A DNA stretch of 64,000 nt, from positions 73,829 to 137,828 of the forward strand of contig NZ_JAQOSO010000084.1 in the NCBI RefSeq assembly GCF_030068505.1, written 5' to 3'. This document shows positions 1,761 through 35,342 of the stretch, one piece after another. The notes beneath the pieces are model-generated. The model worked only from the letters and a program-made list of their open reading frames with translations, had not been told where the DNA came from and did no database searches. This DNA comes from Roseofilum capinflatum BLCC-M114 (GTDB lineage Bacteria; Cyanobacteriota; Cyanobacteriia; Cyanobacteriales; Desertifilaceae). A program made the position numbers and the translations under genes. Position 1 is the stretch's first letter; the number at the start of each line of letters is the position of its first letter.

Positions 1761-1762
1761 GA

Positions 1763-7900: not shown

Positions 7901-8820
7901 CCGCTACTGGGGCCATCATGGTTGATGGCGGAACCGCGAACTAGGGCTAAAATGCGATCGCCATCCCGAACCGCATCCCTCACTCGTTTTAATACCAACA
8001 TCCCGCAGCCTTCTCCGCGAGCATATCCATCTGCACTCGCGTCAAACGTCTTGCAGCGACTATCGGCAGCTAAAGCCCGTCCCTTACAAAATCCATGGGT
8101 TACGGAGGGATGGAGCATCAGATTCACCCCTCCCGCCAGGGCCAAGTTACATTCCCCTAGGCGTAAACTTTGGGCCGCCAAATGTACCGTAACCAAAGAC
8201 GATGAACAAGTGGTATCGAGGCAGAACGTCGGCCCTTGCAGTCCCAAAACATAGGCAATGCGACCGGCAGTAATATTCATGGCCGTCCCAGTTCCGAGAT
8301 AAAAATCCGGTAACTGATTCACGGAGATATCCGAGCCGACTCTAGCGTAGTCATTAAAACATTGACCCACATAAACCCCGGTCTCCGTATTTTTCAGGCT
8401 TCTGGGGGCAATTCCCGCATGTTCTAAGGCTTCCCAACTCACTTCCAAGAGCAGGCGCTGGGAAGGGTCCATTTTCGCCGCTTCTAATCCGGAAATCCCG
8501 AAAAAGGCGGGTTCAAATTGATCTACCTTTTGCTCTAGGAAATACCCTTGACGGACATACATTTTCCCCGGTACTTCTGGGTCTTCGTCATAGTAGCGGT
8601 CAATATCCCATCGGTCTTTAGGAATCTCACACCGGGCATCTTTGCCAGTTTTGAGCATGTCCCAATAGGCTTCTGGACTCTCTCCCCCTCCCGGAAATCG
8701 GCATCCCATGCCTATAATGGCGATCGCCTCGCTTTTGGATTCTTCAATTTGATTCAGTTTGGCGATCGCCTGGCGAACCGCTACGAGAAGGCGTTGTTCT
8801 TTAGAAAGTTGACTGTCCAT
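4924..8820 (-). CDS. PKS module KS-AT-ACP-ACP (beta-branching site)
   Basis: 1298-aa PKS. An N-terminal helix (~1-28) looks like a docking element. KS at ~30-455 has Cys205 in DTTCSSSL, His340 and His380. AT at ~575-880 has Ser670 in GHSVGEY and AFHS at ~771, the malonyl-CoA signature. No KR, DH or ER follows, so the beta-keto group is left for the HMGS cassette. Two near-identical ACPs follow a Pro/Ala/Glu-rich linker (Ser1066 and Ser1176). Both read [19 protein letters not shown], with Trp six residues after Ser, the motif reported to flag ACPs for beta-branching. The C-terminus ends in a helical tail ([20 protein letters not shown]). The cassette genes follow directly. Confidence is high for the domains and good for the role. 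Confidence 0.95.
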
Positions 8821-19278: not shown

Positions 19279-22200
19279 AGAGTGATTTCCTCCATATCTT
19301 CTTCTGGGCTATCTTCAGTGAGCGAATGGTCTACAGCGCTAAGTTGCTCTAATAATAAGTGCTGAGTGACCCATTGGGCAATCTCAAGAATACTAATTCC
19401 TTCAATCAGTTTAGGAATGGGAATATCGACCTCCAGTTGTCGCTGGAGTAGGTTGCGTAATTCCACCGCCATCAGGGAATCAAGTCCCAACATGGTGAGG
19501 GGTTTTTCAGGATCGATTTTTCCGTCTTTCATGCCTAAAAGATGGGCAATTTTCGGTTCGAGTAGACTTAAGAGCAGATCCTCTCTTTCCGCGCTGGGGA
19601 CAGCTTGGAGTTGGTCGAGTAAGCGGTTTTCTTCGGCTTGGTTTTCTGCCTCGGTTTCCTCCTGACTTTCTTCATGGACGCGAGAGCTAAATTTCTCGAA
19701 GGTGGCGTGTTTTTGCTGCTCAGGCAGTTGGCGCAGGAAGTTGGGCCACTCCACGGGAACGACGGCCATTTGCGCTTCGCTGGCTGATAGGAGTTCGGAT
19801 ATGGCTCGCATTCCTTCTTCGGGGTCGAGCGATCGCAGTCCACTCTCTTCTAAACGCTGTTGCAGTTCTGCGCTTAAATTCGCGGCCATGCCCACTTTAC
19901 CCCAGGGGCCCCAGTTAATGGTAAGCGCAGGTAACCCTAATCCTCGCCGATAATGGGCGATCGCATCCATAAAGCTGTTAGCGGCTGCATAATTACTTTG
20001 TCCGGCCGATCCAAACAGGGAAGCAATAGAGGAGAAGCAGATAAAGAAATCTAGGGGTAATTCTTGGGTGAGTTGGTGTAAATGCCAGGTTCCCAGGACT
20101 TTGGGAGCCATGACTTTGGTAAATTGCTCCCAAGTCAGGCTTTGCAGTAGTCCGTCGTCTAAAACTCCGGCTGCATGGATAATGCCTTTGAGTGGGGGTA
20201 AGATTTGGGCAATTTGCTCTAGGAGTTGGCTGTTATCTTTGGCTGTGGAAATATCCGCCGCCACGGTGGTAATGGATGCGCCCATATTTTCAAGTTGGGC
20301 AATTTTCGCTTGAGCCGTTTCCGACGGTGAACGACGGGAGGTTAACACCAGGTGGGTGGCTCCTTCCTTAACCATCCACTCGGCAATTTCTAAGCCTAAT
20401 GCTCCTAACCCCCCGGTAATGAGATAGGTGGCTTGGGGTTTGATCGTCACTTCCCTGGGTTGTTCGGGTAGGGAAATGACCACTTTGCCGATATGCTTGG
20501 CCTGTTGCATATGGCGGAAGGCTTCTTTAATGTCTGTGCTGGCAAAGGTTTGGTGAGGCAGGGGGTTGAGGGTTCCGTTTTCCCATTGGGGAGCCAGAGC
20601 GTTGCCCAGTTGAGTGACAATATCCGGTTGCGCTGTCGCCACTTCTCCCAAGTCAAAGGGGAAGTATTGCACATCGGGGCGTTTGGCTTTGACTTCTTCG
20701 GCACTCCAAATGCCGATTTTACCAATTTCTACAAAGCGCCCCTTGGGGGCTAGGATCTCTAGACTTTTATCGATGAAGTCCCCATTCAGGCTATTGAGGA
20801 CGACGTTAACCCCTTTGCCTTGGGTTTTGTCCTGGATCTGTTGGGCAAAGTCGAGGGTACGGGAGTTCATAATGTGGTGAATGCCCAAAGATTTGAGGAA
20901 GTCCCATTTTCCAGGGCTGGCGGTGGCGAAAATTTCGGCTCCGGCAGCTTGGGCAATTTGTACGGCGGCTTGACCGACTCCTCCGGCAGCAGAATGGATT
21001 AAGATCTTATCCCCAGCTTTGAGTTTTGCCAATTCCTGCAAGCCATAGTAGGCGGTGAGGAAGGTTAAGGGCAGGGTCGCCGCTTGGGTGAAGTTCAGGG
21101 GTTTGGGTAGGGGTATCACCCGGTTAGCGGGGGTGGTCAAGTAGCTACTAAAGCCATCATTGAGTAAGGTGGCCATGACGCGATCGCCGATTTTCCATTC
21201 GCTCACCCCTTCCCCTACGGCAACAATGGTTCCCGCACATTCAAAGCCAAAGGTCAATTCATCGGCATGGGTGATGCCCAAATGTTCAGCATAGTAGTCT
21301 TTGAGCATTCCCAAGGCGTTGAGAACATCGCGGAAATTCAGTCCGACGGCTTTCACTTCAATTTCGACTTCTCCCGCGACTGGGGCACGACGTTCTAGGG
21401 TTTCCCAGGTGAGGTTGTCGATGGAGCCGTATTCAGAGAGTTTCAGTTGTACCGGTTGCCTGTCGTGGCTCTCTGGCGTTTTCCGGTGTTCCAACCGCGC
21501 CACATAGCGCTGTCCCTGACGCAGGGCAATTTGATCGTCGGGGTTCTCACTGAGCAACTCGGCCGCTAAACCGGGAATACTGGACTCGATGGCGGTATTG
21601 GGATCGAGGTCAATGCGCCGACAGTTGAGTTTGGGCTGTTCGAGAACGAGCGATCGCCCCAAACCCCACACTGTTGCATACTGAGGTTGAGTAACTTCCG
21701 TAGCATCAAGAACGTTTTGAGTTCCTTGGGTAACCAGCGACAGCAGGGGGTTGATTTTCGCTTGATTGAGAGCTTGCACCAGATGGAGGATACTAGCGAG
21801 ATGGGTAAGGGCGGGTTCACCCATTTTTTGGTCTTCCAAGCGAGATCTTGGTGAACCCGCCCCTACGCGGACTTCTGCTGTTGCCCACAAATGGACAATA
21901 CCGGTCACATCGGGATGATCCTGGAGCAATTTTTGATAGTGTTCCTTCTCCGTCGGGTTGATTTGATAGTGGGGGGTTTTGAACTTGCGGAATTTTTTAC
22001 CCGCCGAGATCCAAATACAGGTTTGTTCCTGGGGTTTGAGTGCTTTTTCTACGGCTTCGGCTAGTTGTCCATTGGGAGCAAAGACGAGCCATTTACCCGG
22101 TTGCGCTTCCGGTTGATATCTTAAGGGCATCTCTTCCCAACTGAGCCGGTAATAAATTTCGCCTAAACCGGGTTGCAAGCTCCGCAGGAGTGCTGAGGCC

Positions 22201-25200
22201 GTGGTGGCGACCAGGGTGAGTCCTTTGATCTCGACTAAGAGGGTTCCTTGGTCATCTGCTAGGTTAATGTTGCCTTTTCCGGTTTGAGGATCGAGTTCGG
22301 CGATCGCCCAGACCTTCGCCCCAGGACGATGATAGAGGGTAAGCTGGTCAATACCGATGGGTAGATAGGTAACATCGGGTTGGCTGCTCTCCATGGCTTG
22401 CCCCAGAACTTGGAAGGCCGCATCGAGCAGAGCCGGATGAAGATGATACTCTTTCAGGTCTTCGGTCACTTCCCCCGCCAGTTCAAGCTTGGCGCGGATT
22501 TTGCCGTCTCCTGTCCAGAGTTGCCGCACCCCTTGGAAGCTTTCGCCGTAGTCTAGACCCCTCTGTTGATACTGGTGGTAATGGTCTTGACAGGTGATTT
22601 CTGTGGTGCAAGTTTTTTCCAGTTCCTTGAGATCAACTTGACATTGAGAGGCTGATGTGCTATGCAGCAATTTCCCCTCGGTGTGCAATGTCCAGGTGGG
22701 ATCATCTCGATCGGCCGAGGTGCTGTAGATCTGGAACTGGTAGCGCTGTTTGCTGATCGGGGTAACAAGGGTTTGTACCCGCTTAACCTCGTTTTCCGGG
22801 AGTAGTAAGCCCTGTCTGATGGTCACTTCTTCGACGACTAAGTGATGGGCATTGAAGAGTTCTTTGGCGCAGGCGATCGCCATTTCCAGGTAACCGGTAG
22901 CGGGAAAAATGGCGCGATCGAACACTCGGTGATCTTTGAGATACCCTGGAGAAGTTTCTGCCAGGTAAGATTCAAAGCGCTGTTGATGGTCAATTCCTGC
23001 TAACAGAAGTTTCTCCCCCAGCAAGGGATGGAGGACTTTACCGGTAATGAGGTTTTGTTTGGGTTGGATGGGTTGGGATTCGATCCAATACCGTTGGCGA
23101 TCGAAGGGATAGGTGGGTAAAGAGATTTTTGTATACTGGTGTTCTGAGTAAAAGCTCGACCAATTCACGGAGCATCCTTGCACATAGAGTTCCCCTAAAC
23201 TGGCGAGAATTTGCTCTTCTTCAGCAACTTGCGGACGCAGAGACGGCAGCCAACTGCCCACTCCATCGGCTACGCACTGCCGCCCCATGCCCAGTAAGAT
23301 GGGTTTGGGCCCAATTTCCAGGAAGGTTTTACACCCCTGTTGCTCTAAGGTTGCCATGCTTTGGGCAAAGTAGACGGGTTGGCGAATGTGGGTGAGCCAG
23401 TAGTCGGCGCTGGCAATTTCTTGGGCGATCGCTTCCCCGGTAACATTAGAGATCAGGGGAATATTGGGTGAATGAAAGTCAATTTCTTCAGCAACTGCCC
23501 TAAATTCTGCCAACATCGGTTCCATGAGGACAGAGTGGAAGGCATGGGACACTTGCAGTTGTTTGGTTTTGATGCCCATTTTCTCACAGTGGGCAATAAC
23601 TGCTTGCACAGCTTTTTGTTCCCCAGAAAGCACGATACTATTGGGGCCGTTGTAGGCAGCAATTTCTACCGGTTTTTTGGTCTTCACTTGCGCCAGCAGT
23701 TCGCTTACCTCCGACTCTGTGGCTAACAAGGAAACCATTTCGCCCCCAGGGGGAAGTTGCTGCATTAACCGCCCCCGCGCAGCGATCAGTTTCAGTCCAT
23801 CTTCCAGGCTAAAGACTCCGGCGATACAGGCGGCCACGTATTCTCCCACACTATGACCCATGACCCAATCCGGTTGAATTCCCCAGGATTCCCACAGTTT
23901 AGCTAGGGCATATTCCACAGAGAACAAAGCAGGTTGAGTGTATTCGGTTTCGTGAAGTGTCTCCGCATACTTGGGGTTGTAAAGCAGGTCGAGTAAGGAG
24001 GGTTTTAGATAGGGTTTGAGGAGTTTGTTGCAGGTCTCTAAAGTATCTTTGAATACGGGTTGACTTTCGTAGAGTTCTTTACCCATGTTGGGGTACTGAG
24101 AGCCTTGTCCGGTGAAGAGGAAGGCGATCTTTGGGGCTTCGCCAAAAGCTTTCCCCCGAATAACGGCGCTATTATCGGGCTGTTTGAGGAAGAGGTTGAG
24201 TTGCTGTTGTAGTTCTTGGGGGGTTTTAGTGGCGATCGCCAATCGTTCCGGAAAGTTAGATTCCCGCCCTTGATGCAGGCTATAACAGAGGTCGGCTAAA
24301 GATGTTTTCGGATTCTTTTTCAGATAAGTTTGATAGCTTTTAACCAGGTTCTCTAGGGACGTTTTGCTGTGGGTCGATAAATTGAAAAGATGATAACCCG
24401 ATGAAGGTTTTACCAAATGTTTTAAGGGGTTTCTCGCCCGACGAGGAGCTTCTTCGACGATCACATGGGCATTAACTCCACCAATGCCAAAGGAACTGAC
24501 TCCGGCTCGACGGGGGATTTTTTTACCGGATTCAGTTTTCAGTTTCTTCCACTTCTGGGTTTTGTCAATGATATAAAATGGACTATCTTGAATTTTGATG
24601 CGAGGGTTGAGTCCATTGAAGTTGACAATTTTAGTTAGTTTCTTATGTTGAAGCGATAGCAGAATTTTGATAAATCCGGCGATTCCTGATGCTCCTTCTA
24701 AATGGCCAATATTGCTTTTAACCGCTCCTAAGCCACAGTAGAACTTTTGGGCTGGTACTTTATATTCCTGGTACAGTTGCCGAAAGCTGCGTTTGAGGGC
24801 ATTGATTTCAATGGGGTCTCCTAACGGGGTTCCTGTACCATGGGATTCGATGTAGGAAATGGTGTCTGGGGAAATATTGGCTTTACTATAGGCAGTACGC
24901 AGGACTTGGGCTTGGGCGTAGACGTTGGGCGAGGTGAGTGTCCGCGCTTTGCCTCCATGGTTAACTGCACTACCTTTGATGACCCCATAAATACGGTCTC
25001 CATCGGCGATCGCCTTATCCAAGGGTTTCAATAAGACCATCCCGGCCCCTTCTCCCCGTACATATCCATCAGCGTCTTGGTCGAAGGTTTTGCATTGACC
25101 TGTAGGAGACAACATGCCTTGTTGACTCATTTGTACATAGGTGGTTGGAGTAAACAACACACTAATTCCACCTACCAGAGCCATTTCACATTCTGACTCT

Positions 25201-25802
25201 TTAATGGCATTCATCGCATAATGAATGGCCACTAAAGAACTGGAACAGGCGGTATCTATCGGTATGCTTGGCCCATGAAAATTAAAGAAGGACGAAATCC
25301 GATTGGGAATCATACAACTCCAAGTGCCTGTTCCACTATGTCCCTCAATTTTTTCTTGGTTCTGATTCATTAAGAGGATTGAATCATAGTTACAAGCACC
25401 AATAAAAACACCGGTCTGACTTCCCGATAACTCTCTAGCCGAATAGCCAGCATCTTCTAGACAAGACCAGCTTAATTCTAATAACAGTCTCTGCTGTGGA
25501 TCGACGTTCTTGGCTTCCCTAGGCGAAATGCTAAAAAATTGAGTATCAAAGTCTTCAATCCCTTCTACAAACCCCCCCCATCGACTGATCGTTTTATTCG
25601 GCTCTTGCGGCGTAGGAGAATAATATTGATCGACATCCCACCTTTGCTTTGGAACTTCAGTAATGCTGTTAATTCCTTTCTCTAAATTTCGCCAAAACTG
25701 ATTGTAGTCGTTGGCTCCTGGAAATCTACAGCTCATACCAATGACAGCAATTTCAGCAGACTTTCTATTTTTTCTATATTTCATCTGTTTTGGGGTGAAC
25801 AC
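19275..25802 (-). CDS. Fully reducing PKS module KS-AT-DH-ER-KR-ACP
   Basis: 2175-aa module, first gene of the visible operon. KS has Cys186 in PIDTACSSSL. AT has GHSVGEY and AFHS (malonyl). DH has DHRVFDRAIFPATGYLEM and HPALLDAAFQ. ER has VGLNFRDVLNALG, FGFECAGTIVAVG and HSAAGGVGQAAVQIA. KR has GGLGALG, AAGVLDDG (B-type) and SNYAAANSFMDA. ACP has LGLDSLMAVEL. The module therefore gives a saturated two-carbon extension. The frame opens at GTG 25802; ATG 25784 is an alternative start and neither has a strong Shine-Dalgarno. The acidic C-terminus (SPEEDMEEITL) is a plausible partner for the TubC domain that starts the next protein. One repeat insertion sits before the ER. There is no loading domain, so the starter unit is unknown. 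Confidence 0.95.
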   Translation of the reverse strand: MFTPKQMKYRKNRKSAEIAVIGMSCRFPGANDYNQFWRNLEKGINSITEVPKQRWDVDQYYSPTPQEPNKTISRWGGFVEGIEDFDTQFFSISPREAKNVDPQQRLLLELSWSCLEDAGYSARELSGSQTGVFIGACNYDSILLMNQNQEKIEGHSGTGTWSCMIPNRISSFFNFHGPSIPIDTACSSSLVAIHYAMNAIKESECEMALVGGISVLFTPTTYVQMSQQGMLSPTGQCKTFDQDADGYVRGEGAGMVLLKPLDKAIADGDRIYGVIKGSAVNHGGKARTLTSPNVYAQAQVLRTAYSKANISPDTISYIESHGTGTPLGDPIEINALKRSFRQLYQEYKVPAQKFYCGLGAVKSNIGHLEGASGIAGFIKILLSLQHKKLTKIVNFNGLNPRIKIQDSPFYIIDKTQKWKKLKTESGKKIPRRAGVSSFGIGGVNAHVIVEEAPRRARNPLKHLVKPSSGYHLFNLSTHSKTSLENLVKSYQTYLKKNPKTSLADLCYSLHQGRESNFPERLAIATKTPQELQQQLNLFLKQPDNSAVIRGKAFGEAPKIAFLFTGQGSQYPNMGKELYESQPVFKDTLETCNKLLKPYLKPSLLDLLYNPKYAETLHETEYTQPALFSVEYALAKLWESWGIQPDWVMGHSVGEYVAACIAGVFSLEDGLKLIAARGRLMQQLPPGGEMVSLLATESEVSELLAQVKTKKPVEIAAYNGPNSIVLSGEQKAVQAVIAHCEKMGIKTKQLQVSHAFHSVLMEPMLAEFRAVAEEIDFHSPNIPLISNVTGEAIAQEIASADYWLTHIRQPVYFAQSMATLEQQGCKTFLEIGPKPILLGMGRQCVADGVGSWLPSLRPQVAEEEQILASLGELYVQGCSVNWSSFYSEHQYTKISLPTYPFDRQRYWIESQPIQPKQNLITGKVLHPLLGEKLLLAGIDHQQRFESYLAETSPGYLKDHRVFDRAIFPATGYLEMAIACAKELFNAHHLVVEEVTIRQGLLLPENEVKRVQTLVTPISKQRYQFQIYSTSADRDDPTWTLHTEGKLLHSTSASQCQVDLKELEKTCTTEITCQDHYHQYQQRGLDYGESFQGVRQLWTGDGKIRAKLELAGEVTEDLKEYHLHPALLDAAFQVLGQAMESSQPDVTYLPIGIDQLTLYHRPGAKVWAIAELDPQTGKGNINLADDQGTLLVEIKGLTLVATTASALLRSLQPGLGEIYYRLSWEEMPLRYQPEAQPGKWLVFAPNGQLAEAVEKALKPQEQTCIWISAGKKFRKFKTPHYQINPTEKEHYQKLLQDHPDVTGIVHLWATAEVRVGAGSPRSRLEDQKMGEPALTHLASILHLVQALNQAKINPLLSLVTQGTQNVLDATEVTQPQYATVWGLGRSLVLEQPKLNCRRIDLDPNTAIESSIPGLAAELLSENPDDQIALRQGQRYVARLEHRKTPESHDRQPVQLKLSEYGSIDNLTWETLERRAPVAGEVEIEVKAVGLNFRDVLNALGMLKDYYAEHLGITHADELTFGFECAGTIVAVGEGVSEWKIGDRVMATLLNDGFSSYLTTPANRVIPLPKPLNFTQAATLPLTFLTAYYGLQELAKLKAGDKILIHSAAGGVGQAAVQIAQAAGAEIFATASPGKWDFLKSLGIHHIMNSRTLDFAQQIQDKTQGKGVNVVLNSLNGDFIDKSLEILAPKGRFVEIGKIGIWSAEEVKAKRPDVQYFPFDLGEVATAQPDIVTQLGNALAPQWENGTLNPLPHQTFASTDIKEAFRHMQQAKHIGKVVISLPEQPREVTIKPQATYLITGGLGALGLEIAEWMVKEGATHLVLTSRRSPSETAQAKIAQLENMGASITTVAADISTAKDNSQLLEQIAQILPPLKGIIHAAGVLDDGLLQSLTWEQFTKVMAPKVLGTWHLHQLTQELPLDFFICFSSIASLFGSAGQSNYAAANSFMDAIAHYRRGLGLPALTINWGPWGKVGMAANLSAELQQRLEESGLRSLDPEEGMRAISELLSASEAQMAVVPVEWPNFLRQLPEQQKHATFEKFSSRVHEESQEETEAENQAEENRLLDQLQAVPSAEREDLLLSLLEPKIAHLLGMKDGKIDPEKPLTMLGLDSLMAVELRNLLQRQLEVDIPIPKLIEGISILEIAQWVTQHLLLEQLSAVDHSLTEDSPEEDMEEITL
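21805..21866. repeat. Palindromic repeat (GTAAGGGCGGGTTCACC family), in frame upstream of ER
   Basis: 17-bp arms GTAAGGGCGGGTTCACC (21805-21821) and GGTGAACCCGCCCCTAC (21850-21866) with one mismatch. The loop shares TTTTTGGTCTTCCAAGCGAG with the copies at 9.4 and 10.2 kb. It encodes RVGAGSPRSRLEDQKMGEPAL. Confidence 0.88.
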
Positions 25803-26201: not shown

Positions 26202-27347
26202 ATGAAAATTGTATTGGTTTGTACAGAAAAATTACCTGTACCTTGTGTTCGTGGTGGGGCAATTCAAACGTATATTGATGGTATCTTGCCTTATTTAAGC
26301 AAAGAACATGACATCACTGTTTTTTCCGTAACCGATCCGAATTTACCGGAACGAGAAGTCAAAAATGGTATTCGATATGAACGATATGCACCAGGGGATT
26401 CTGAGGCATATTACCAAGCAGTCGCTAACTTTGTGGCTAAAGAAACTTTTGATTGGGTTATCTTTTACAACCGACCGAAGTATTTACCCTTAGTTGCCGA
26501 TGCCGCACCTCAAAGTCGCTTTCTTTTGAGTATGCATAATGAGATGTTTCATGCTAAGAAAATCACACCTGAACTGGCTCATCGCTGTTTAAGTCGAGTA
26601 GAGTCAGTGGTTACAGTAAGTCAATTTATTGCTGATGGAATTGCGGATTTATTTCCCGATTATCAGCATAAGCTCAAACCTGTTTATGCGGGAGTGGATC
26701 TCAACCGCTTTCAACCGCGATGGTCATCCGGACTGCAAGAGCGTCGGTCAAGTTTGTTAGCTCAACACGGCCTAGAAGATAGAAAAGTAGTGCTTTGTGT
26801 CGGTCGTTTAACGGATAAAAAAGGGCCGCATATTTTACTCAATGCTTTTCCAAAAGTCTTAGAACAACATCCTTCTGCTGTGCTTTTACTCGTTGGTAGT
26901 AAGTGGTACGGTAAAAATGAGGAGAATGGCTATGTCCGCGATCTGAAAAAGCAGGCAGGAAAATTGGGTGATGCAGTCCGTTTAACGGGTTTTATTTCAC
27001 CAGATCGAGTTCAAGATTATTTCCTTTTAGGTGATATTTTTGTCTGTGCTTCTCAGTGGCAAGAACCCTTGGCTCGCGTTCATTATGAAGCGATGGCGAC
27101 GGGGTTATGTATTCTAACGACAGTGCGGGGTGGAAATGCAGAAGTGATCATTCCGGAAAAAAATGGCTTACTGGTGACGGATTACGAAAATCCCGATGCT
27201 TTTGCCCAGCCGATTAATTACCTGTTATCCAATCTGGATTTAGCGGAAGATATGGGGCGTAATGGCCGGCATTTAAGTGAGATTAATTACAGTTGGTCTA
27301 GGGTTTCCTCGGATATTTTGCACGTCCTAGAAAAGCCTTTTGTATAA
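26202..27347 (+). CDS. GT4-family glycosyltransferase
   Basis: 381-aa GT-B glycosyltransferase. The N-terminal half opens with MKIVLVCTEKLPVPCVRGGA, the acceptor-side Gly-rich motif. The C-terminal half has VVLCVGRLTDKKGPHILLNAF and the donor-binding segment QEPLARVHYEAMATGLCILT with its E(x7)E-like pattern. It most resembles spore-coat CotSA-like GT4 enzymes. It is probably cytosolic and uses a nucleotide sugar; acceptor unknown. It is a single plus-strand gene between the PKS cluster and the LamG group, with a bidirectional hairpin just after it. Whether it serves either neighbour cannot be told. Confidence 0.88.
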   Translation: MKIVLVCTEKLPVPCVRGGAIQTYIDGILPYLSKEHDITVFSVTDPNLPEREVKNGIRYERYAPGDSEAYYQAVANFVAKETFDWVIFYNRPKYLPLVADAAPQSRFLLSMHNEMFHAKKITPELAHRCLSRVESVVTVSQFIADGIADLFPDYQHKLKPVYAGVDLNRFQPRWSSGLQERRSSLLAQHGLEDRKVVLCVGRLTDKKGPHILLNAFPKVLEQHPSAVLLLVGSKWYGKNEENGYVRDLKKQAGKLGDAVRLTGFISPDRVQDYFLLGDIFVCASQWQEPLARVHYEAMATGLCILTTVRGGNAEVIIPEKNGLLVTDYENPDAFAQPINYLLSNLDLAEDMGRNGRHLSEINYSWSRVSSDILHVLEKPFV

Positions 27348-27400: not shown

Positions 27401-27428
27401 GTAGGGGTTTTCTCCGGAAAGCCCCTAC
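27401..27428. terminator. Bidirectional hairpin between convergent genes
   Basis: GTAGGGG-T-TTTC and GAAA-G-CCCCTAC around a short TCCG loop. It lies between the 3' ends of the glycosyltransferase (+) and the LamG gene (-), and the stop codon of the latter (27425-27427) is inside the stem. There is no long T-run on either side. Confidence 0.6.
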
Positions 27429-28354
27429 AGCTTGGAAAGAGCTTTGGCAAAATCGTTGTAAACATTCCGAACCCATTTTATGGTTTGTTTTTGTTCGGAT
27501 TTTTTTTGCTTCTTTTTGGCTTTTCGACTGTAAATAATTTCTGGTTCTCCACCCAGTCCTTTCTTGCTTCTCAAGACTATAATTTGAGTAATTTCCCTGG
27601 GAATTTTGAGTTTAGGGTTTAATTTTAACTTGGGTTTGTTTTTTGACTGGATCTCGATTAGGGGAATATCGGGGGATCGAGAAGGTTCAGGGGGTATCCA
27701 AGTGGCTCCTTGGATGGTTCCAGGGTTGCTGTTTTCTGTGAGGTCTTGAATCTGAGTTCCTGATCCTTCATTCAGGGGCCAATACCCGATTAATCCGGGT
27801 TCATTACCGAGCAAACGGTGCTGACATTGGGTTTTAATTTCTGGGTGGGTTCGGGGTTGATTCCAAATGCGAATGTCGGCGATGTATCCTTTCAATCGGG
27901 TTTTACCAAAGAGTCGTCCGATTTGGAAGGGGACATCACTGGGGGGGTTGATGGGATCGGATAGGGGTTGGGAACCTTGGGGTTGAGCATCGATATAGAG
28001 TTCAACTTGCTGACGATCGATGACTAAGGCAAGATGATGAAATTGGCGATCGCCAATCTTCATCGAAGGTTGCCAAACGGCGGGAGATTCTGAGTATAAA
28101 AACTTGATTTGCTCGCGATTCCCTTTTAAGTTCTGATAGAGCAGGCCATAATTATAGTTATACTGACGAGTTCCTCGACCGAGAATATAATATCGGCTGC
28201 CTTCTTGCGGATCGGTGAGTTTCAACCAACATTCGATCGCCATCGGTTCAGTCAGATTTAACTGACTGCTATTACCACAGTCAATATAATCGTCTTTGCC
28301 GTCAAACTCTAGGATGCTTTCAGTGGGGTAAGGATAGTCCAAATTTTGGGTCAT
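27425..28354 (-). CDS. Single-LamG protein with basic C-terminal module
   Basis: 309 aa. Residues ~10-215 form one LamG/concanavalin-like jelly-roll domain (LEFDGKDDYIDCGNSSQLNL, AIECWLKL, YIADIRIWNQPRTH, GLIGYWPLNEGSG). After a linker, residues ~250-309 contain GLGGEPEIIYSRKAKKKQKK, then a helix ending WVRNVYNDFAKALSKL. That tail is a diverged, shortened version of the basic module in the neighbouring 845-aa LamG protein and the 94-aa protein at 33327-33611. No signal peptide or membrane segment is visible. LamG domains usually bind glycans or proteins; the ligand is unknown. Confidence 0.85.
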   Translation of the reverse strand: MTQNLDYPYPTESILEFDGKDDYIDCGNSSQLNLTEPMAIECWLKLTDPQEGSRYYILGRGTRQYNYNYGLLYQNLKGNREQIKFLYSESPAVWQPSMKIGDRQFHHLALVIDRQQVELYIDAQPQGSQPLSDPINPPSDVPFQIGRLFGKTRLKGYIADIRIWNQPRTHPEIKTQCQHRLLGNEPGLIGYWPLNEGSGTQIQDLTENSNPGTIQGATWIPPEPSRSPDIPLIEIQSKNKPKLKLNPKLKIPREITQIIVLRSKKGLGGEPEIIYSRKAKKKQKKSEQKQTIKWVRNVYNDFAKALSKL

Positions 28355-28385
28355 GAAATGGGTGGGTGAGGTTGAATGGGAAAAA

Positions 28386-28420
28386 GGTAATAGGGAACAG
28401 ACCTTTGTGTACCTATTACC
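28386..28420. repeat. Inverted repeat between the two LamG genes
   Basis: GGTAATAGG (28386-28394) and CCTATTACC (28412-28420), in the 96-bp gap. On the minus strand it lies after the 845-aa LamG gene and may modulate read-through. Confidence 0.5.
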
Positions 28421-28450
28421 TTATTACAGCTCAGGGACTAGAGAAAGGGA

Positions 28451-30988
28451 CTAGAACAGTTTTTCCCAACTCTTAGTTGTGTTTTTAACTAAATCCTTGA
28501 TCCAACCATTCTTTTTCTTGCGATTCGATCGCTTATGCCGTTCAACGTAAGTGTGAGTGGCTTTATCTTGCCGTTTAGCGACCTTACGCACGACTTTCTC
28601 GACAGGAGAAAGATATTTGTTTTGCTTTTTGCGTTTCTTGCGTTTTTTCTTCTGTTCTTTGCCGTAGATAGTTTTGGGTTTGCCTCCCAAATCATTGCTA
28701 CCTGTCAAAATAGTGACGCTGATTACGGTTGTGTCAAAGTCTAGATCTACATCAAGGTCTTGGGAGCGATCGGCTTTGGGTTGGACAGTGGCAGGGGTTA
28801 CCGGAGCGATCGCCGCAGTTGGTGCAGTGGCTTGAGGTGTTGCGGTTCCTTGAGCATCTGTTTGCAGGAAATACAGGTCTTGTTGTTCCCAGGTTCCTCC
28901 GTAAAGGATGGCTGTACTCTGTTTGGTGCGATCGCTGATTTGGTTATTCCCTTCATTCAGAGGCCAATACCCGACTAATCCCCCTTCTTGACCCGTCAAC
29001 TGATATTGACGCTGGGTTTGGATCTGTTCTGCTGACCGCTCTATATTCCAGATGCGGACATCAGCCACTTTTCCTTGGAAGTGGAAGATTCCCCCCTCTC
29101 CTGAATGGGGACGTTGAGCGCCGATCCGCAAGGGGAATGTGCTGGTTTTCCAGTCTATGGGTTGACTGGTTTCACATTGAGCTGCCAATGCTCCATTGAC
29201 ATACATCTCATGGGTTTTTCCGACTCGCTTAATGGCGATATGTGACCATTGGTGTTGAAGGACGGTTGATTTCAACAGATAACCCTGTTTTCCTTCCCAC
29301 AGTAGGGTATTGCCCGGCTGGTCTGAGAACATGAAGGCAAGGGTGTTTTTGTCTTGAACGAGTCGAAATTGATAGGCACTGACTCCATGTTTTTCCGCAG
29401 ACAGAATTACCCCCGATTGTCCGGTACTGTATACCCACGCTTCTAGGGTGAAGGGAGTTAGACCGAGGGAGAGTTGAGCGTTGGTTTCGATGTAGCTGTT
29501 GCCATCTAAACTGAGGATCGCTTGGGGTTGGGTGGGAACATCCATGAGTGAATCAATCTGTAGACCTTGACCCCCTTTTGACGGCAAATATTGCAGCAGT
29601 TCGCGTTCATCTCCCGTTAGTCCTAAGTGGGTGAGGTTGGCCATGGGGCGATCGCCAGCGAATCCAAATTCTACCGTTTCCTGTTCCCAGGTTCCGCCAT
29701 ATAGAGTAGTGTTGCTGTTTCCAGTGCAATCGCTCACTTCTCCATTGCCCTCATTCAGCGGCCAATAGCCGACTAACCCCGATTCTTGTCCACTTAAACC
29801 CCAATTTTTTTGAATCTGGATTTCTTCTGGCGATCGCTCTATATTCCAAATCCGCACCTCAGCGACTTTACCCTTAAAGTAAAAGATTCCCCCCTCTCCT
29901 GAATAGGGACGTTGAGCGCCAATACGCAAGTTTACCGTGCTATTTTGCCAATCAATGACTTGCTCGGTTTGACATTCGCTGGCCAGTTTTCCATCCACAT
30001 ACAGTTGATAGGTGGTTCCGATCCGTTTGACTGCAATATGTGACCATTCATTCTCAGCCACCGTGGACTGTAATAAATATCCCTGTTTACTGTCCCAAAG
30101 GAGATGATTTCCGGGGCGATCGGAGAACATAAAGGCGATCGTATTCTTCTCTTGAACCAGTCGGAATTGATAAGCACTGACTCCATGTTTTTCCGAGGAG
30201 AGAATCACCCCTGATGCCCCCGTGCTATAGACCCAAGCTTCCAGGGTAAAGGGTTCAGTGCCAAAGTTGAGCTTACAGTCCGTTTCAATGTAGTCACTTT
30301 CTCCATTGAAACTCAACACCCATTGAGAATGCTCCTCTCTAGTCGGAACTGCTGGTTTCATTTCCACTCCATCCTGTTGCCAAGTCGCACCATGAATCGT
30401 ACCTGGTTCAATCTTACCCGTGCGATCGCCAATCGTCTCTCCTGTACCTTCATCCAACGGCCAATAAGCGACCAATCCATCTTCATTACCCACCAAACGG
30501 CGATCCATAGCCGCTTGAATCTCTTCAGCCGTTAGCGCTTTATCCCACAACCGAACATCACTGAGTTCTCCACAAAAGTATTTATCCGCACTTCTACTGC
30601 GTCCTAGAGTATAATTCTTAAATATCGTTGGCATTGAAGCAATTGCTTTAGAGTATTGCAATTGGCCATTCAAATAGGTTTTGACTTCATTGCCATCATA
30701 AGTAATTGCTAGATGTTGCCATTCTAATTGGACTTTCCCCATGCGAACCTGAACATCGCTATGATAGAAGCGATAATAACCATTCATCACATCGATTTGG
30801 AAAGAATTACTAAATGGAGGATCATCACAACTGTTTATTAAACTGGCATAATTGACCTGCTTTTGACTAGCCTTAGCCCACAGTTCAACCGAAAAAACCG
30901 GCGTTTCCCACTCCGGAATATACATGACGATATAGTCTTCATCCCCATCAAACACCAAGGAAGGCCAAGAAAGTGTTAATTGACTCAT
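28451..30988 (-). CDS. Triple-LamG protein with basic C-terminal module
   Basis: 845 aa with three LamG-type domains at ~10-205, ~220-430 and ~490-700. Each ends in a VGYWPLNEG-like motif (VAYWPLDEG in the first). Domains 2 and 3 are much more alike than either is to domain 1, sharing for example GVSAYQFRLVQ and LRIGAQRP, and look like a recent internal duplication. Residues ~745-845 carry the basic module: NDLGGKPKTIYGKEQKKKRK, SPVEKVVRKVAKRQDKATH, then RSNRKKKNGWIKDLVKN. The last segment is almost identical to the 94-aa protein at 33327-33611. There is no signal peptide, so export, if any, must use another route. Function not recognised. Confidence 0.87.
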   Translation of the reverse strand: MSQLTLSWPSLVFDGDEDYIVMYIPEWETPVFSVELWAKASQKQVNYASLINSCDDPPFSNSFQIDVMNGYYRFYHSDVQVRMGKVQLEWQHLAITYDGNEVKTYLNGQLQYSKAIASMPTIFKNYTLGRSRSADKYFCGELSDVRLWDKALTAEEIQAAMDRRLVGNEDGLVAYWPLDEGTGETIGDRTGKIEPGTIHGATWQQDGVEMKPAVPTREEHSQWVLSFNGESDYIETDCKLNFGTEPFTLEAWVYSTGASGVILSSEKHGVSAYQFRLVQEKNTIAFMFSDRPGNHLLWDSKQGYLLQSTVAENEWSHIAVKRIGTTYQLYVDGKLASECQTEQVIDWQNSTVNLRIGAQRPYSGEGGIFYFKGKVAEVRIWNIERSPEEIQIQKNWGLSGQESGLVGYWPLNEGNGEVSDCTGNSNTTLYGGTWEQETVEFGFAGDRPMANLTHLGLTGDERELLQYLPSKGGQGLQIDSLMDVPTQPQAILSLDGNSYIETNAQLSLGLTPFTLEAWVYSTGQSGVILSAEKHGVSAYQFRLVQDKNTLAFMFSDQPGNTLLWEGKQGYLLKSTVLQHQWSHIAIKRVGKTHEMYVNGALAAQCETSQPIDWKTSTFPLRIGAQRPHSGEGGIFHFQGKVADVRIWNIERSAEQIQTQRQYQLTGQEGGLVGYWPLNEGNNQISDRTKQSTAILYGGTWEQQDLYFLQTDAQGTATPQATAPTAAIAPVTPATVQPKADRSQDLDVDLDFDTTVISVTILTGSNDLGGKPKTIYGKEQKKKRKKRKKQNKYLSPVEKVVRKVAKRQDKATHTYVERHKRSNRKKKNGWIKDLVKNTTKSWEKLF

Positions 30989-31053
30989 AAGCTAACATAA
31001 CTCCACAGAACATGGTAAATTTTTTAACGGTAAAATCCTTGACTTACGCCCTA

Positions 31054-32835
31054 CTATGGGAAAAATCCATATTCTTTACGCTCTAGAATAGAAGCAGAGG
31101 CTGATAACATTCTAATCGTTAGCAGCATAGCGATCAATATAGCAATCCATCCAATATAGGGAAGGATCATAATCTTATGAACGAAATCCTCTAAAGCTGA
31201 ATTGTGAATCCATTGAATCACTGGGAAATGGTATTGATACAGGAATGTATACAATACGAATATAGCTCCAAGACCTACCGCATAGGAAAAAGACCGGAAA
31301 ATAACCGCTAGAGCCAAAGCATAAGGATCGGCCGTTAATTCAAACGGTGTAGTCCGTTGTCGCAGCTCAGGCAGAATAATATTATTGTACTCATCTATAA
31401 TATTAAACAACTGATTCAATGAAGCTCTAATCACTTGAGGTTCTAAACTTTTCCTAAATGCTCGGCGATCGGCTTGTTTTTTATACTTATCAATCAGCTT
31501 AAAAATATTGAAATTTGGAGTTATATACTGAAGAGAGCCATCCAGCGTCAAGAACGATCGCGTGATTTTCAGAAAGATCCAGTTACTCGGTGTACCATAT
31601 TTGATTTGCACTTTAGACACTTCACTGGTAGCTCCCCCAAAGGATTTTTCCTGATAGTCTACCCCTTTCAGTCGTGCCTTAGATGCCCAAACCTCTATTC
31701 CTTGCGCCATCTCCGATCGCACTCTGGGCATATTCACCCTAGGTACATCTAAGGCAAACCGGATATAATAATCAGAAGCCTTAGCAAAATCCTCTTCTGC
31801 CAATCCATTAATATAATTCAGATATTTAATTCTTAAATCTCTATCTAATCTCCCAATACTACCCATATCAATTAAGGCAAACTTTGTATTCCGCAACAAG
31901 ATAATATTACCTGGGTGGAGATCGCCATGATACAAATTATCTTCAAAAATTTGTCTATACAAGGATAAAAACAGCCTTTCCCCTAGCTTTTCCGTATCCA
32001 TATTGTTTTCTACTTCCCATTGTTTGACTTTCTGTGGATCGGCTTGAGCAACTTTGATATAATCAGACATCAATACACCGTCAATAAATTCCATCACCAA
32101 CACTCTTCGTCTCGAATACTTATCATAGATTTTAGGTACATAGATTTTATGGGCCTTCAGAGACTTACGCATCCGGCGAGTATTCGAGGCTTCATAGCGA
32201 TAATCTAATTCTTCTCGAAATGTTTTTTCTAACTCGATAATGGCTTCATCTAATCGCAAAAAAGTAGCTATATTGAATCGGGTTAATAGATTCACTAGAA
32301 CTTTAATTAAGTTGAGATCTCTCTCAAATGATTCTTTAATTCCTGGACGTTGTATTTTTACAACCACAGGTTTCTGCTCATTCCGCAAAACTGCTTTATG
32401 AATTTGGGCAATAGAAGCGGCTGCGAGAGGATCGTCATCAAAATATTCAAATACTTTTTCGACAGGTTGACCCAGTTCTTCTTCAATTGTGGCGCGAACT
32501 ACTTTTGTCGGAAATCCCAAAGCTTCAAACTGTAAACGGCGTAACTCATCACAGACAACTTTAGGAAATAAATCGGTTCTTAAAGCCAAAACTTGTCCAG
32601 CTTTTACCCAAAATCCACCAAATTCTTCAAATATTTCCCGTAGGTCATTCGCTGTTTTTTGCAGGTCAGACTGTCGGGTAATCCGTCGAATTTGTATGCC
32701 TAAAAAATAAACTAGGAAGCGTCGGATAACGTAATAGATAGAAAAGCGGCGGGTTTCTAGTTCAGCAACAACTTTTACTTTTTTTTTGCTTTTCGCTTCA
32801 ATTAGCGGTGTAGGGATATCTTTACGTTTAACCAT
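31054..32835 (-). CDS. UbiB/ABC1-type atypical kinase, membrane-anchored
   Basis: 593 aa from ATG 32835 (TTG 32844 is also open). It shows the family signatures: VKAGQVLALRTDLFP (KxGQ), the Ala-rich loop DPLAAASIAQIHKAVL, a VVKIQRPG lysine, YHGDLHPGNIIL and FALIDMGSIG. Two hydrophobic segments near the C-terminus (SYAVGLGAIFVLYTFLY and IGWIAILIAMLLTIRML) should anchor it in a membrane. ABC1 family members are best known from quinone/isoprenoid lipid biology, but several act on unknown substrates. It lies inside the group sharing the C-terminal modules, 65 bp from the triple-LamG gene, which suggests a dedicated rather than housekeeping copy (inference). Confidence 0.88.
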   Translation of the reverse strand: MVKRKDIPTPLIEAKSKKKVKVVAELETRRFSIYYVIRRFLVYFLGIQIRRITRQSDLQKTANDLREIFEEFGGFWVKAGQVLALRTDLFPKVVCDELRRLQFEALGFPTKVVRATIEEELGQPVEKVFEYFDDDPLAAASIAQIHKAVLRNEQKPVVVKIQRPGIKESFERDLNLIKVLVNLLTRFNIATFLRLDEAIIELEKTFREELDYRYEASNTRRMRKSLKAHKIYVPKIYDKYSRRRVLVMEFIDGVLMSDYIKVAQADPQKVKQWEVENNMDTEKLGERLFLSLYRQIFEDNLYHGDLHPGNIILLRNTKFALIDMGSIGRLDRDLRIKYLNYINGLAEEDFAKASDYYIRFALDVPRVNMPRVRSEMAQGIEVWASKARLKGVDYQEKSFGGATSEVSKVQIKYGTPSNWIFLKITRSFLTLDGSLQYITPNFNIFKLIDKYKKQADRRAFRKSLEPQVIRASLNQLFNIIDEYNNIILPELRQRTTPFELTADPYALALAVIFRSFSYAVGLGAIFVLYTFLYQYHFPVIQWIHNSALEDFVHKIMILPYIGWIAILIAMLLTIRMLSASASILERKEYGFFP

Positions 32836-32872
32836 CCTTAACAAGGGTAGAGATGCTCAGGTCAATAGTTAA

Positions 32873-32916
32873 TAATCCACCCAGAAACCATAGTAACATA
32901 GTTTTTGGGTGGATTA
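32873..32916. repeat. Inverted repeat upstream of the UbiB-type gene
   Basis: TAATCCACCCA (32873-32883) and TGGGTGGATTA (32906-32916), perfect 11-bp arms extended by AAAC/GTTT. It lies just 5' of the kinase gene on its transcript, so it may be an operator or leader hairpin. Confidence 0.55.
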
Positions 32917-32956
32917 ACAGCCACACATAACTTTTATTGACAAACAGAAAATCTGT

Positions 32957-32982
32957 GTAAATACTTGAGAAAAAGTATTTAC
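32957..32982 (-). terminator. Hairpin directly after the 68-aa module protein gene
   Basis: GTAAATACTT and AAGTATTTAC, 10-bp perfect arms with a 6-base loop. It begins four bases past the stop of the gene at 32986-33192. It is A/T-rich without a strong U-tract. Confidence 0.5.
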
Positions 32983-32985
32983 AGA

Positions 32986-33192
32986 CTAAAATTTGTTGTC
33001 TGATTTTTTGGGAACGATCACCACAATAGGCTGTGCATTCTCTTCAACTTGACCAGAGTCTTTTAACTCATCAATAGTTTTGGCAAGTTTTTTGAACAGT
33101 TTACCTTCTCCACGTTTTAAATCTTCGATATCATCCTTTTTGGCACTAGGCATTTCAAGGATGATTGTGTTTGCAGTTTGTGCTTTCGGCAT
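32986..33192 (-). CDS. 68-aa stand-alone copy of the lipase C-terminal module
   Basis: Small protein, start ATG 33192 with a TAGGAAG Shine-Dalgarno-like stretch. Its residues align almost end to end with the last ~66 residues of the lipase at 33720-35342. Both contain SAKKDD, DL, RGEGKL, LK, QV, NAQP and a final KK...KF. Pattern: beta strand, SAKKDD[VI][DE]DL, a helix, NAQP, a hydrophobic strand, basic end. I recall uncharacterised DUF6200-like small proteins of this appearance but cannot confirm membership. No signal peptide. Function unknown; the context suggests a scaffold or partner for tagged proteins. Confidence 0.82.
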   Translation of the reverse strand: MPKAQTANTIILEMPSAKKDDIEDLKRGEGKLFKKLAKTIDELKDSGQVEENAQPIVVIVPKKSDNKF

Positions 33193-33272
33193 AGATTTGT
33201 CTTCCTAGGTATTGAAAGAAATGGTTTTAGAGGGTGGTTTTAGAATTCAATAGCTTCCGGATTCTTAAGAAC

Positions 33273-33306
33273 TTCAATTAGCTTAATGAGACTTAAGCTA
33301 ATTGAA
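33273..33306. repeat. Perfect 14-bp inverted repeat between the two small module genes
   Basis: TTCAATTAGCTTAA (33273-33286), loop TGAGAC, TTAAGCTAATTGAA (33293-33306). It lies after the 94-aa gene and before the 68-aa gene on the minus strand. It may be a terminator, a processing stem or an operator. Confidence 0.6.
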
Positions 33307-33326
33307 AGACGATCAAAGAACTAAAA

Positions 33327-33611
33327 CTAGAACTTAAGTAGCTTACTAGCTGCTTTAGTATAGTTTTTCGGAAGGTCTTTTATCCATCCATTTTTTTTCT
33401 TCTCATTGGACTTCTCATGGCGATCGCGATACTCACTTGTTGCTTTATCAAATTGCTTCGCCATTTTGAAGACCATCTTTTCAGGCCCCTTTAAGTCTTG
33501 TTTTTTCTTTTTCTTTTTCTTTTTCGGACTTCGCCCTTCGAGAGTATGAACTTCACCACCAAAATCTTCATCGCTCTCAAGGACGACTACGCTTTTCGCT
33601 TTTTCAGCCAT
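33327..33611 (-). CDS. 94-aa stand-alone copy of the LamG C-terminal basic module
   Basis: ATG 33611 has AGGAG eight bases upstream; a longer frame to 33680 is open but lacks such a site. Sequence layout: SVVVLESDEDFGGE, an eight-lysine run after RSP, GPEKMVFKMAKQFDKAT, EKSNEKKKNGWIKDLPKN, and KAASKLLKF. The same order and the KKKNGWIKDL core occur at the C-terminus of the 845-aa LamG protein. It is very basic and probably mostly helical. I recall DUF6312-like proteins of this look but cannot verify. Function unknown. Confidence 0.82.
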   Translation of the reverse strand: MAEKAKSVVVLESDEDFGGEVHTLEGRSPKKKKKKKKQDLKGPEKMVFKMAKQFDKATSEYRDRHEKSNEKKKNGWIKDLPKNYTKAASKLLKF

Positions 33612-33719
33612 GTTTTTTACTCCTGTCAATACAGTTGTTGGTTGAGGTAAAAGTTGTCGCCAGTCCTTTGAGTATAACACATCTAGCCACGAAGATCAAG
33701 TTTTTTGGTCTCTCGGCCA

Positions 33720-35342
33720 TCAGAATTTGCCGCTATCTTTCTTCTTCTGAACGATAAAGATAACGGGTTGGGCATTTTGACTAACTTGATCGGCTTGTTT
33801 GAGCTGTTCCATAACACTGGAGATGCTCCTCAACAGCTTGCCTTCCCCACGCAATAAATCATCTACATCATCTTTCTTCGCACTACCATAATTGACAATC
33901 ACAGTGTTTTGAGTTTGAACTTTGCTTTCTTCAACTTTCATCTTCGATGCAACTTGGGCAGTGAGTTCTGCTCTTCTTGCATCAAACTCTGTGAATTGGT
34001 AGTGTCTACTATAACGCCAGACATGCTGAAAAAGAACTTGTAAGACGAAATTGATCAAGCGAACAACCTGTCCTGTAGATAATAATTCCTCTAATTCATC
34101 AGGTATGGGAAATAGAAACAAGTTGACATCAACACCACAAATTTTACTGATGATGCCGTTTAAAGATTCTTTCAGTAACTCTTCTGAGCTGGCATTATTA
34201 GTAACAACATCATCGAGAACGGCTCTGACTTCCTCAGAAAATTCTTTAACCAAATCTGTCACATAATCTTTGGTCACATCTCCGACAAGTGGAATACTTT
34301 GGAGTTGCAGAATAATAGGATAGGCCATGAACTCTGTACAAACATCTAAGACTACCTCTTTTAGGTCTGAATCGTTAGGTAGATTATCAATCATGAAACC
34401 AGGATTAAAATCACTGGCAAAACCTTCGGTAGTGCGTTTTATATGAGTATAGTTCTGATCTTGACTCGATAGCTCTAAGGCTTTCAATGCAATATCGACT
34501 GCTAAAATCGGAGGAATATCGGGTGTATAAATTCTGGGAATTTTTCTGAGTCCTTCAACTGCCCAAACGTTAGGAACGATATCCATCTGATTCCACAGCC
34601 TTTCGGTTTTATCCCCTAAAGTTTGGTCATAATAACGAGCAAATGCTTCATTTCCTGGAGAAAAACCGGCTAAAGATACAACTTTTATGTTAGTTGTGTG
34701 TTTAGCATCCCACTCCGCCTGTCGATCGACTAAGGATAAGGCAAGAGATGGAGCCATTGCACCGGCAAGACTGTGACCTGCAACGGTAATTTCTACAGGT
34801 TTGCTTGCATTCATGGTGATTTCTCTGAGATGATCGAAGAGGAGTTGATCGCCATCCCACATGGCTGTGGTTAAATCTTTTAGAGCTTTGGTAATTCCAG
34901 CCGAAACAGCCGGTTCACCGTTGTCTTTGGTCAGTCTTTCTGCTGTCTTCCAGGGTTGGCCTTGATTCCACGGGGAAGCGGTGGCCACATTGACATCCTC
35001 AAGCAAGAGGTTTTGTAGAGAGAAGGGATTGGTTCCAGCTAGAGCAATGACATATTGATCGAGATCGGGGTTATCCATGTATTTAGCTATATACATGGTA
35101 TGGTCATTAACATTTGAGGAGGACGATCCTTTCTTAATTTGGTAAACAGCACATCCCCAGGTCAGTTGCCATGTACCGATGAGACTGCGAATTTGCGGAT
35201 CAGCAAAATTGGCTTTGACCGCTTTTGTAGCAAAAGTCTGTAAATATTCTTGAGAACCAAAGTAAGTTTTGGGAATAGAAATACAATAAGTCAGCCAGAT
35301 TAGGCAAAGAATTTTTTGCTGCCAACTATATTGACTGGACAT
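33720..35342 (-). CDS. Class-3 lipase-like hydrolase with C-terminal module
   Basis: 540 aa. An alpha/beta-hydrolase domain (~40-320) has YVIALAGTN before the nucleophile elbow TVAGHSLAGAMAPS with Ser191 (GxSxG). The Asp and His of the triad are likely in the region up to residue ~330 but I cannot assign them. A helical region follows, and residues ~475-540 are the module shared with the 68-aa protein (SAKKDDVDDLLRGEGKLL, QNAQPVIFIV). A moderately hydrophobic N-terminal stretch (ILCLIWLTYCISI) is not a clear signal peptide. Expected activity: lipid or ester hydrolysis. It heads the module-sharing group of genes. Confidence 0.84.
   Translation of the reverse strand: MSSQYSWQQKILCLIWLTYCISIPKTYFGSQEYLQTFATKAVKANFADPQIRSLIGTWQLTWGCAVYQIKKGSSSSNVNDHTMYIAKYMDNPDLDQYVIALAGTNPFSLQNLLLEDVNVATASPWNQGQPWKTAERLTKDNGEPAVSAGITKALKDLTTAMWDGDQLLFDHLREITMNASKPVEITVAGHSLAGAMAPSLALSLVDRQAEWDAKHTTNIKVVSLAGFSPGNEAFARYYDQTLGDKTERLWNQMDIVPNVWAVEGLRKIPRIYTPDIPPILAVDIALKALELSSQDQNYTHIKRTTEGFASDFNPGFMIDNLPNDSDLKEVVLDVCTEFMAYPIILQLQSIPLVGDVTKDYVTDLVKEFSEEVRAVLDDVVTNNASSEELLKESLNGIISKICGVDVNLFLFPIPDELEELLSTGQVVRLINFVLQVLFQHVWRYSRHYQFTEFDARRAELTAQVASKMKVEESKVQTQNTVIVNYGSAKKDDVDDLLRGEGKLLRSISSVMEQLKQADQVSQNAQPVIFIVQKKKDSGKF

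Follow-up and report, generated by a model that had tools for sequence, protein, structure and literature searches.

Why would a cyanobacterium encode a lipase, two laminin G (LamG) proteins, a UbiB-type kinase and two very small proteins side by side, with the small proteins reappearing as the C-terminal tails of their larger neighbors? The question is raised by six minus-strand genes at positions 27425-35342 of a 64,000-nucleotide stretch of Roseofilum capinflatum BLCC-M114 (contig NZ_JAQOSO010000084.1, positions 73,829 to 137,828), here called the window. These genes form one group, with intergenic gaps of 66 to ~140 bp. Comparison with other genomes points away from the lipase and LamG proteins as the essential part of this arrangement. 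The two small modules, DUF6312 and DUF6200, together with a UbiB-family protein and usually beside polyketide synthase (PKS) genes, are a conserved core that is found in at least four bacterial phyla.

The gene group and its two modules

A Pfam search of the window proteins assigned the first module (module X) to DUF6200 (PF19702) and the second (module Y) to DUF6312 (PF19831). The group is laid out as follows:

33720-35342, minus strand: class 3 lipase with a C-terminal DUF6200 tail (Pfam; 540 aa; tail at ~33735-33935, residues 470-536)
33327-33611, minus strand: stand-alone DUF6312 protein, module Y (94 aa; Pfam E=3.4e-31)
32986-33192, minus strand: stand-alone DUF6200 protein, module X (68 aa; Pfam E=2.9e-22)
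31054-32844, minus strand: UbiB/ABC1-family ATPase or atypical kinase of a dedicated subfamily, with a hydrophobic C-terminus (Pfam E=7e-65, motifs, tree clade)
28451-30988, minus strand: triple-LamG protein with a C-terminal DUF6312 tail (Pfam; 845 aa; tail at ~28460-28732, residues 753-843)
27425-28354, minus strand: single-LamG protein with a degenerate DUF6312 tail (tail at ~27464-27601; Pfam and iterated profile)

The Pfam gathering cut-offs are 26.9 bits for DUF6200 and 27 bits for DUF6312. DUF6200 scores 78.6 bits in the stand-alone protein (E=2.9e-22) and 60.8 bits in the lipase tail (E=1e-16), and DUF6312 scores 107.8 bits in the stand-alone protein (E=3.4e-31) and 109.2 bits in the triple-LamG tail (E=1.2e-31). 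The tail of the single-LamG protein matches just the first half of DUF6312 and lies under the cut-off (E=8e-5, 23.2 bits). It matches an iterated DUF6312 profile at 3e-15, and the single-LamG homologs of other Roseofilum retain a larger part of the domain. Judged by its sequence, this tail is a genuine DUF6312 remnant. The original prediction, made from the sequence of the window, that each module exists both alone and as a tail is borne out by Pfam matches on four of the proteins that it named, and the diverged copy that it placed on the single-LamG protein is recovered as well.

The identities of the larger proteins also stand. Lipase_3 scores 47.9 bits against a cut-off of 22, with a predicted nucleophile motif GHSLAG rather than one of the GHSLG type, and Laminin_G_3 is present in three copies in one protein and one copy in the other. 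The protein first described as an ABC1-type kinase does contain an ABC1 domain and can be refined to the UbiB family. Inspected by eye, the tailed proteins have no apparent signal peptides, aside from a short hydrophobic stretch near the N-terminus of the lipase. A whole-genome search recovered two DUF6200 and three DUF6312 copies, every one of them within the 8-kb group, so that the clustering noticed originally is not due to chance.

The AlphaFold2 model of DUF6200 has a beta-alpha-alpha-beta arrangement (predicted local distance difference test, pLDDT, 82), and Foldseek gave nothing significant for it (best E 1.5). DUF6312 is strongly basic with predicted helices; its model is of low confidence (pLDDT 67), with a helical C-terminal half, and had zero Foldseek matches. 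Profile searches of solved chains returned nothing convincing for either module. The top VIA-align rows for DUF6200 were 4-oxalocrotonate tautomerase-like chains, with a Z of 3.6 that is too weak to use.

A conserved trio with its own UbiB subfamily

A genome-wide scan with a DUF6312 alignment gave 40 named loci, and two plasmids (Azospirillum and Methylosinus) carry the module pair as well. The table of loci has 47 rows, which become 44 distinct loci once three duplicates are removed; all counts below concern loci drawn from this DUF6312-based scan. The carriers are cyanobacteria (Okeania, Roseofilum, Symploca, Moorena, Trichodesmium, Tolypothrix and others), Pseudomonadota, Acidobacteriota and Myxococcota. 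DUF6200 lies within ~1.1 kb of DUF6312 in 43 of the 44 distinct loci. UbiB is found near DUF6312 in 26 of the 47 rows, and PKS ketosynthase (KS) or acyltransferase (AT) domains are found near it in 31 of 47 within the DNA stretches examined. Among the non-cyanobacterial loci, which belong to Pseudomonadota, Acidobacteriota, Myxococcota and one unplaced metagenome-assembled genome (MAG), KS/AT or trans-AT genes occur within ~12 kb in 18 of 19 and UbiB in 15 of 19, and many have trans-AT, PfaD and 3-hydroxy-3-methylglutaryl-CoA synthase (HMGS) genes. On both plasmids, the DUF6312-DUF6200 pair adjoins PKS genes. In Trichodesmium G320, a single contig carries DUF6312, two DUF6200 genes and a glycosyltransferase at one end of a PKS cluster and a lipase-DUF6200 protein and UbiB at the opposite end, and this cluster is collinear with that of Roseofilum, as PKS-nonribosomal peptide synthetase (NRPS)-PKS...KS-AT-thioesterase (TE)-lipocalin.

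To assign proteins to UbiB/ABC1, we used an ABC1 domain over the cut-off together with the KxGQ, Ala-rich-loop, HxDxHPGN and DxG motifs. The window protein scores 219 bits and retains KAGQ, AAASIAQI, HGDLHPGN and LIDMG. It falls well below the equivalog for ubiquinone 2-polyprenylphenol hydroxylation that represents UbiB proper (TIGR01982, 266.5 vs 487.55 bits) and below MABP-1 (NF050082, 119.8 vs 800 bits). Phylogenetic analysis compared the linked UbiBs with the other UbiBs of nine carrier genomes or records plus the genome of the window. The 29 linked UbiBs and 1 extra UbiB form a single clade (support 100/99), and 25 unlinked UbiBs fall outside it. The extra member (L103/L120) sits in a trans-AT PKS cluster, and the DUF6312 genes of that genome are on another PKS contig. 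Across 339 cyanobacterial genomes, a window-type UbiB occurs in six, and the same six genomes, with no others, have DUF6200 over its Pfam cut-off; the chance of this agreement would be ~5e-13 under independence, though these genomes, from four genera, are not independent. For DUF6312, DUF6200 and UbiB, the pairwise distances are correlated with one another (r=0.73-0.87), a level that none of 5000 permutations reached. This pattern of linkage, shared clade and co-divergence makes it highly likely that DUF6312, DUF6200 and UbiB are a functional unit.

Stand-alone modules are present in nearly every locus, while tails are seen in cyanobacteria only, where they are occasional and their carriers (lipase, LamG and carbohydrate-binding-like proteins) are unrelated to one another. 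Orthologs of the tailed lipase exist in other Roseofilum and in Trichodesmium, and in Okeania two related lipases without the tail are encoded next to UbiB and a Lipocalin_5 gene. In a class-level-distant cyanobacterial genus, a LamG-DUF6200 protein is encoded beside patatin, UbiB, DUF6200, a weak DUF6312 relative and AT/FabD genes. Since otherwise neighboring proteins are fused, it is suggested, short of proof, that a tail and its client act in one place, and we lean slightly toward the fused tails tethering client proteins to a complex. The original proposal of modules that serve as tags for docking or assembly around a core of the small proteins fits the near-universal stand-alone copies, the occasional tails on unrelated proteins and the co-occurrence and co-divergence with one UbiB subfamily; the physical interaction that it implies is something we infer. 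The survey of neighbors did not find the modules scattered without the kinase. Scatter without lipase or LamG partly holds, because lipase and LamG are local additions.

The neighboring PKS-NRPS cluster

The group adjoins a hybrid PKS/NRPS cluster at window positions 1-25802, which did not figure in the original prediction. The nearest PKS gene is 1.6 kb from the group, and one glycosyltransferase gene lies between them:

26202-27347, plus strand: glycosyltransferase (Pfam Glycos_transf_1), a conserved neighbor in cyanobacterial loci only
19275-25802, minus strand: PKS module KS-AT-dehydratase (DH)-enoylreductase (ER)-ketoreductase (KR)-acyl carrier protein (ACP), by domain search
14938-19278, minus strand: NRPS module of condensation, adenylation and peptidyl carrier protein domains (C-A-PCP) with a TubC_N docking domain, by domain search
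8848-14799, minus strand: PKS module KS-AT-DH-KR-ACP, by domain search
4924-8820, minus strand: PKS module KS-AT-ACP-ACP, by domain search
3135-4490, minus strand: stand-alone KS of an HMGS (beta-branching) cassette, by domain search
1763-3022, minus strand: HMG-CoA-synthase-like beta-branching enzyme, by domain search
996-1772, minus strand: enoyl-CoA hydratase (ECH) of the HMGS cassette, by domain search
1-1008, minus strand: second, ECH-like protein of the HMGS cassette, extending past the window edge (translation read by eye)

Past the window edge, the cluster ends in KS-AT-ACP-TE and a Lipocalin_5 protein. With its KS-AT-ACP modules, stand-alone KS, HMGS, ECH and TE, this is a modular PKS-NRPS with an HMGS cassette. 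All five strong modular KS domains of the genome fall in one stretch (C84:72.8-99.6 kb), making this its sole modular PKS/NRPS cluster, and by simple arithmetic the DNA up to 12 kb from a strong KS domain makes up ~1% of the genome. It is therefore very probable that the group belongs to the hybrid cluster as an accessory arm. Cyanobacterial HMGS-branched PKS-NRPS clusters are likewise hybrid. Malyngamide-annotated clusters were reported in 9/9 of the Roseofilum MAGs examined (PMC9967302).

Several smaller features accompany these genes. The ECH-like protein (1-1008, minus strand) ends in ~22-residue repeats (ETQNEEDILTQLQSGEISLDAAESFLLG) that are possibly a docking or linker element. In cyanobacterial loci, the glycosyltransferase found here at 26202-27347 adjoins the module pair even when no PKS is near, and in Nostocales-type loci a DUF6208 gene, from a further family linked to these genes, lies beside DUF6200/DUF6312 and the glycosyltransferase (L031:11246-12238, L057:9803-10780, L058:13900-14889). 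Lipocalin_5 recurs beside terminal PKS or lipase/UbiB genes (L077:14091-14570, L034:4692-5180, L122:204-653, L042:4066-5261, L045:4351-5409).

Possible function of the trio

UbiB relatives are proposed to extract coenzyme Q (CoQ) precursors from membranes, working with Ubi/CoQ complexes, and the Ubi complex of E. coli includes the small accessory proteins UbiJ and UbiK (PMC8854274). The mycobacterial UbiB-family ATPase MABP-1 binds erythromycin and lowers susceptibility (PMC6208485). By analogy with the UbiB/CoQ complexes and this macrolide-binding relative, we propose a membrane-side handling complex. The UbiB-family membrane ATPase and the DUF6312 and DUF6200 adaptors would assemble beside the polyketide assembly line, where ATP hydrolysis by UbiB would serve to extract a hydrophobic polyketide, or the acyl precursor of one, or to present or shield it. 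Adaptor copies at the C-termini of class 3 lipase, LamG and carbohydrate-binding-like proteins would bring these clients to the complex. Partners of the hydrophobic-ligand type, namely class 3 lipase, patatin and Lipocalin_5, do recur across loci. Whether the trio handles a hydrophobic polyketide is in our judgment evenly balanced, and we hold the same even expectation for the proposal as a whole, including the recruitment of clients by tails.

A number of observations weigh against this proposal. In the complete Moorena bouillonii genome, the closest KS is >1.7 Mb away from the module pair, UbiB and the glycosyltransferase, and there are copies in Symploca and Okeania SIO2C9 without PKS nearby. 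Because of these copies, the linkage to PKS has to be considered strong but not obligatory. Many cyanobacterial loci, and 4 of the 19 non-cyanobacterial ones, have no UbiB near the pair, and species-tree history accounts for part of the distance correlation. In its model, DUF6312 by itself appears poorly folded, and the structural searches gave no convincing relative of either module. Some loci encode, beside an intact UbiB, a second UbiB-like copy without the KxGQ, Ala-rich-loop and HGD motifs (L068:8270-10072, L072:9240-11141, L073:3839-6046), which from motif content could represent paired active and degenerate ATPases. One Symploca DUF6200 protein (L124:8508-8873), unlike the others, starts with a signal-peptide-like hydrophobic stretch that hints at another compartment.

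The same genes could instead serve self-protection or export, with the UbiB-family protein binding the finished polyketide and, together with the small proteins, sequestering it or passing it to an exporter, while the lipase and LamG proteins would have the membrane or envelope of the producing cell as their target. The drug binding of MABP-1 (PMC6208485) is a precedent, the solved structures that best match the window UbiB are bacterial ABC1 proteins of the MABP-1 type, and further families recur among several non-cyanobacterial loci, one of them resembling, by eye, a resistance-nodulation-division (RND) efflux protein. We nevertheless regard this explanation as unlikely, given that the match to MABP-1 is general to the family and far under the equivalog cut-off, that resistance genes rarely need two conserved adaptors and fused tails, and that the trio is also present without PKS in some cyanobacteria. 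An explanation that we consider distinctly unlikely is a storage granule, in which the lipophilic product is held in an inclusion resembling a lipid droplet or plastoglobule and DUF6312 and DUF6200 form its coat or are targeted to it, with UbiB, lipase and patatin resident there and the tails acting as targeting signals. ABC1 kinases occur in plastoglobules, and for one in Nostoc an association with lipid droplets has been proposed (PMC7660261). The basic, helical character of DUF6312 would also suit such a role, as would the lipases and patatins without apparent signal peptides that carry or adjoin the modules, but the Pfam search gave no phasin or fibrillin match. Trans-AT PKS hosts among the Pseudomonadota are not known for lipid-droplet-like bodies, which also counts against a granule.

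The architecture of the cluster bears on the supply of a starter unit, where the lipase would release an acyl chain from a membrane lipid and a UbiB-adaptor complex would deliver it to the first KS. The first PKS protein opens with an extending KS, the stretch of the cluster that was examined yielded no loading domain, and lipase_3 or patatin recurs beside UbiB. The non-cyanobacterial loci have no lipase although the trio is equally conserved there, no enzyme that would activate a free acid turned up, and genes for the starter may lie elsewhere; we find this role very improbable. The original prediction had placed its emphasis on a hydrolase and glycan-binding complex unrelated to PKS, with the modules as sorting tags. 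This would accommodate the tails on LamG and carbohydrate-binding-like proteins, the steady presence of the glycosyltransferase in cyanobacteria and the PKS-free copies in Moorena, Symploca and Okeania. The emphasis proved too narrow, as lipase, LamG and carbohydrate-binding-like fusions occur in few genomes, those of lipase and LamG in few cyanobacteria only, the core being DUF6312, DUF6200 and UbiB, and PKS neighbors are present in most loci and nearly all non-cyanobacterial ones; such a complex seems quite improbable. Two further candidates were rejected. PADLOC gave just weak kinase-fold matches to UbiB, which does not indicate a defense system, and a phage origin was dismissed after a viral-contig scan found no relative, with a viral scan that used the PKS likewise empty.

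The proposed polyketide-handling complex resembles the E. coli Ubi complex (UbiJ, UbiK) and the yeast CoQ synthome (Coq8) in combining a UbiB-family ATPase with small accessory proteins for hydrophobic intermediates (PMC8854274). It differs from them in that neither module X nor module Y has a match in Pfam to SCP2, the domain of UbiJ, the UbiB belongs to a different subfamily and the surrounding genes are for polyketide, not quinone. MABP-1 (Rv3197) shares the ABC1/UbiB fold and binds a polyketide (PMC6208485), but it is without transmembrane regions, has not been described with partner modules and matches the window UbiB in a general way only. Docking domains of PKS and NRPS such as TubC_N are likewise small terminal modules that join assembly-line proteins, whereas modules X and Y have no Pfam match to them and are borne by non-PKS proteins; no PKS protein in the loci was seen to carry them. 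By analogy, then, the group would work like a UbiB-type accessory complex, yet it is distinct from ubiquinone UbiB, MABP-1, UbiJ and known docking domains.

PF19702 and PF19831, of which the two modules are members by score, are already named families whose function is not described, and we found no function, partner or gene context for either in the open-access papers searched. These papers likewise gave no description of a cassette joining AarF/UbiB/ABC1 proteins with polyketide genes, subscription papers being mostly beyond the search, nor of any system with the present layout, in keeping with what the original prediction had supposed. Tentatively, and with somewhat less than even confidence, we suggest that the trio is an undescribed ATP-driven polyketide-handling complex, a polyketide counterpart of the ubiquinone biosynthesis complex, present in at least four phyla and with fused adaptors as plug-in recruiting tags. 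Two Pfam families of unknown function and a UbiB subfamily would thereby gain a function or, failing that, a pathway and a set of partners open to testing. Co-occurrence of the modules can be used to find such clusters, to which the tails might serve to recruit enzymes. If the suggestion is true, certain polyketide assembly lines rely on a membrane ATPase complex of their own, a point of possible relevance to the heterologous production of cyanobacterial and trans-AT polyketides.

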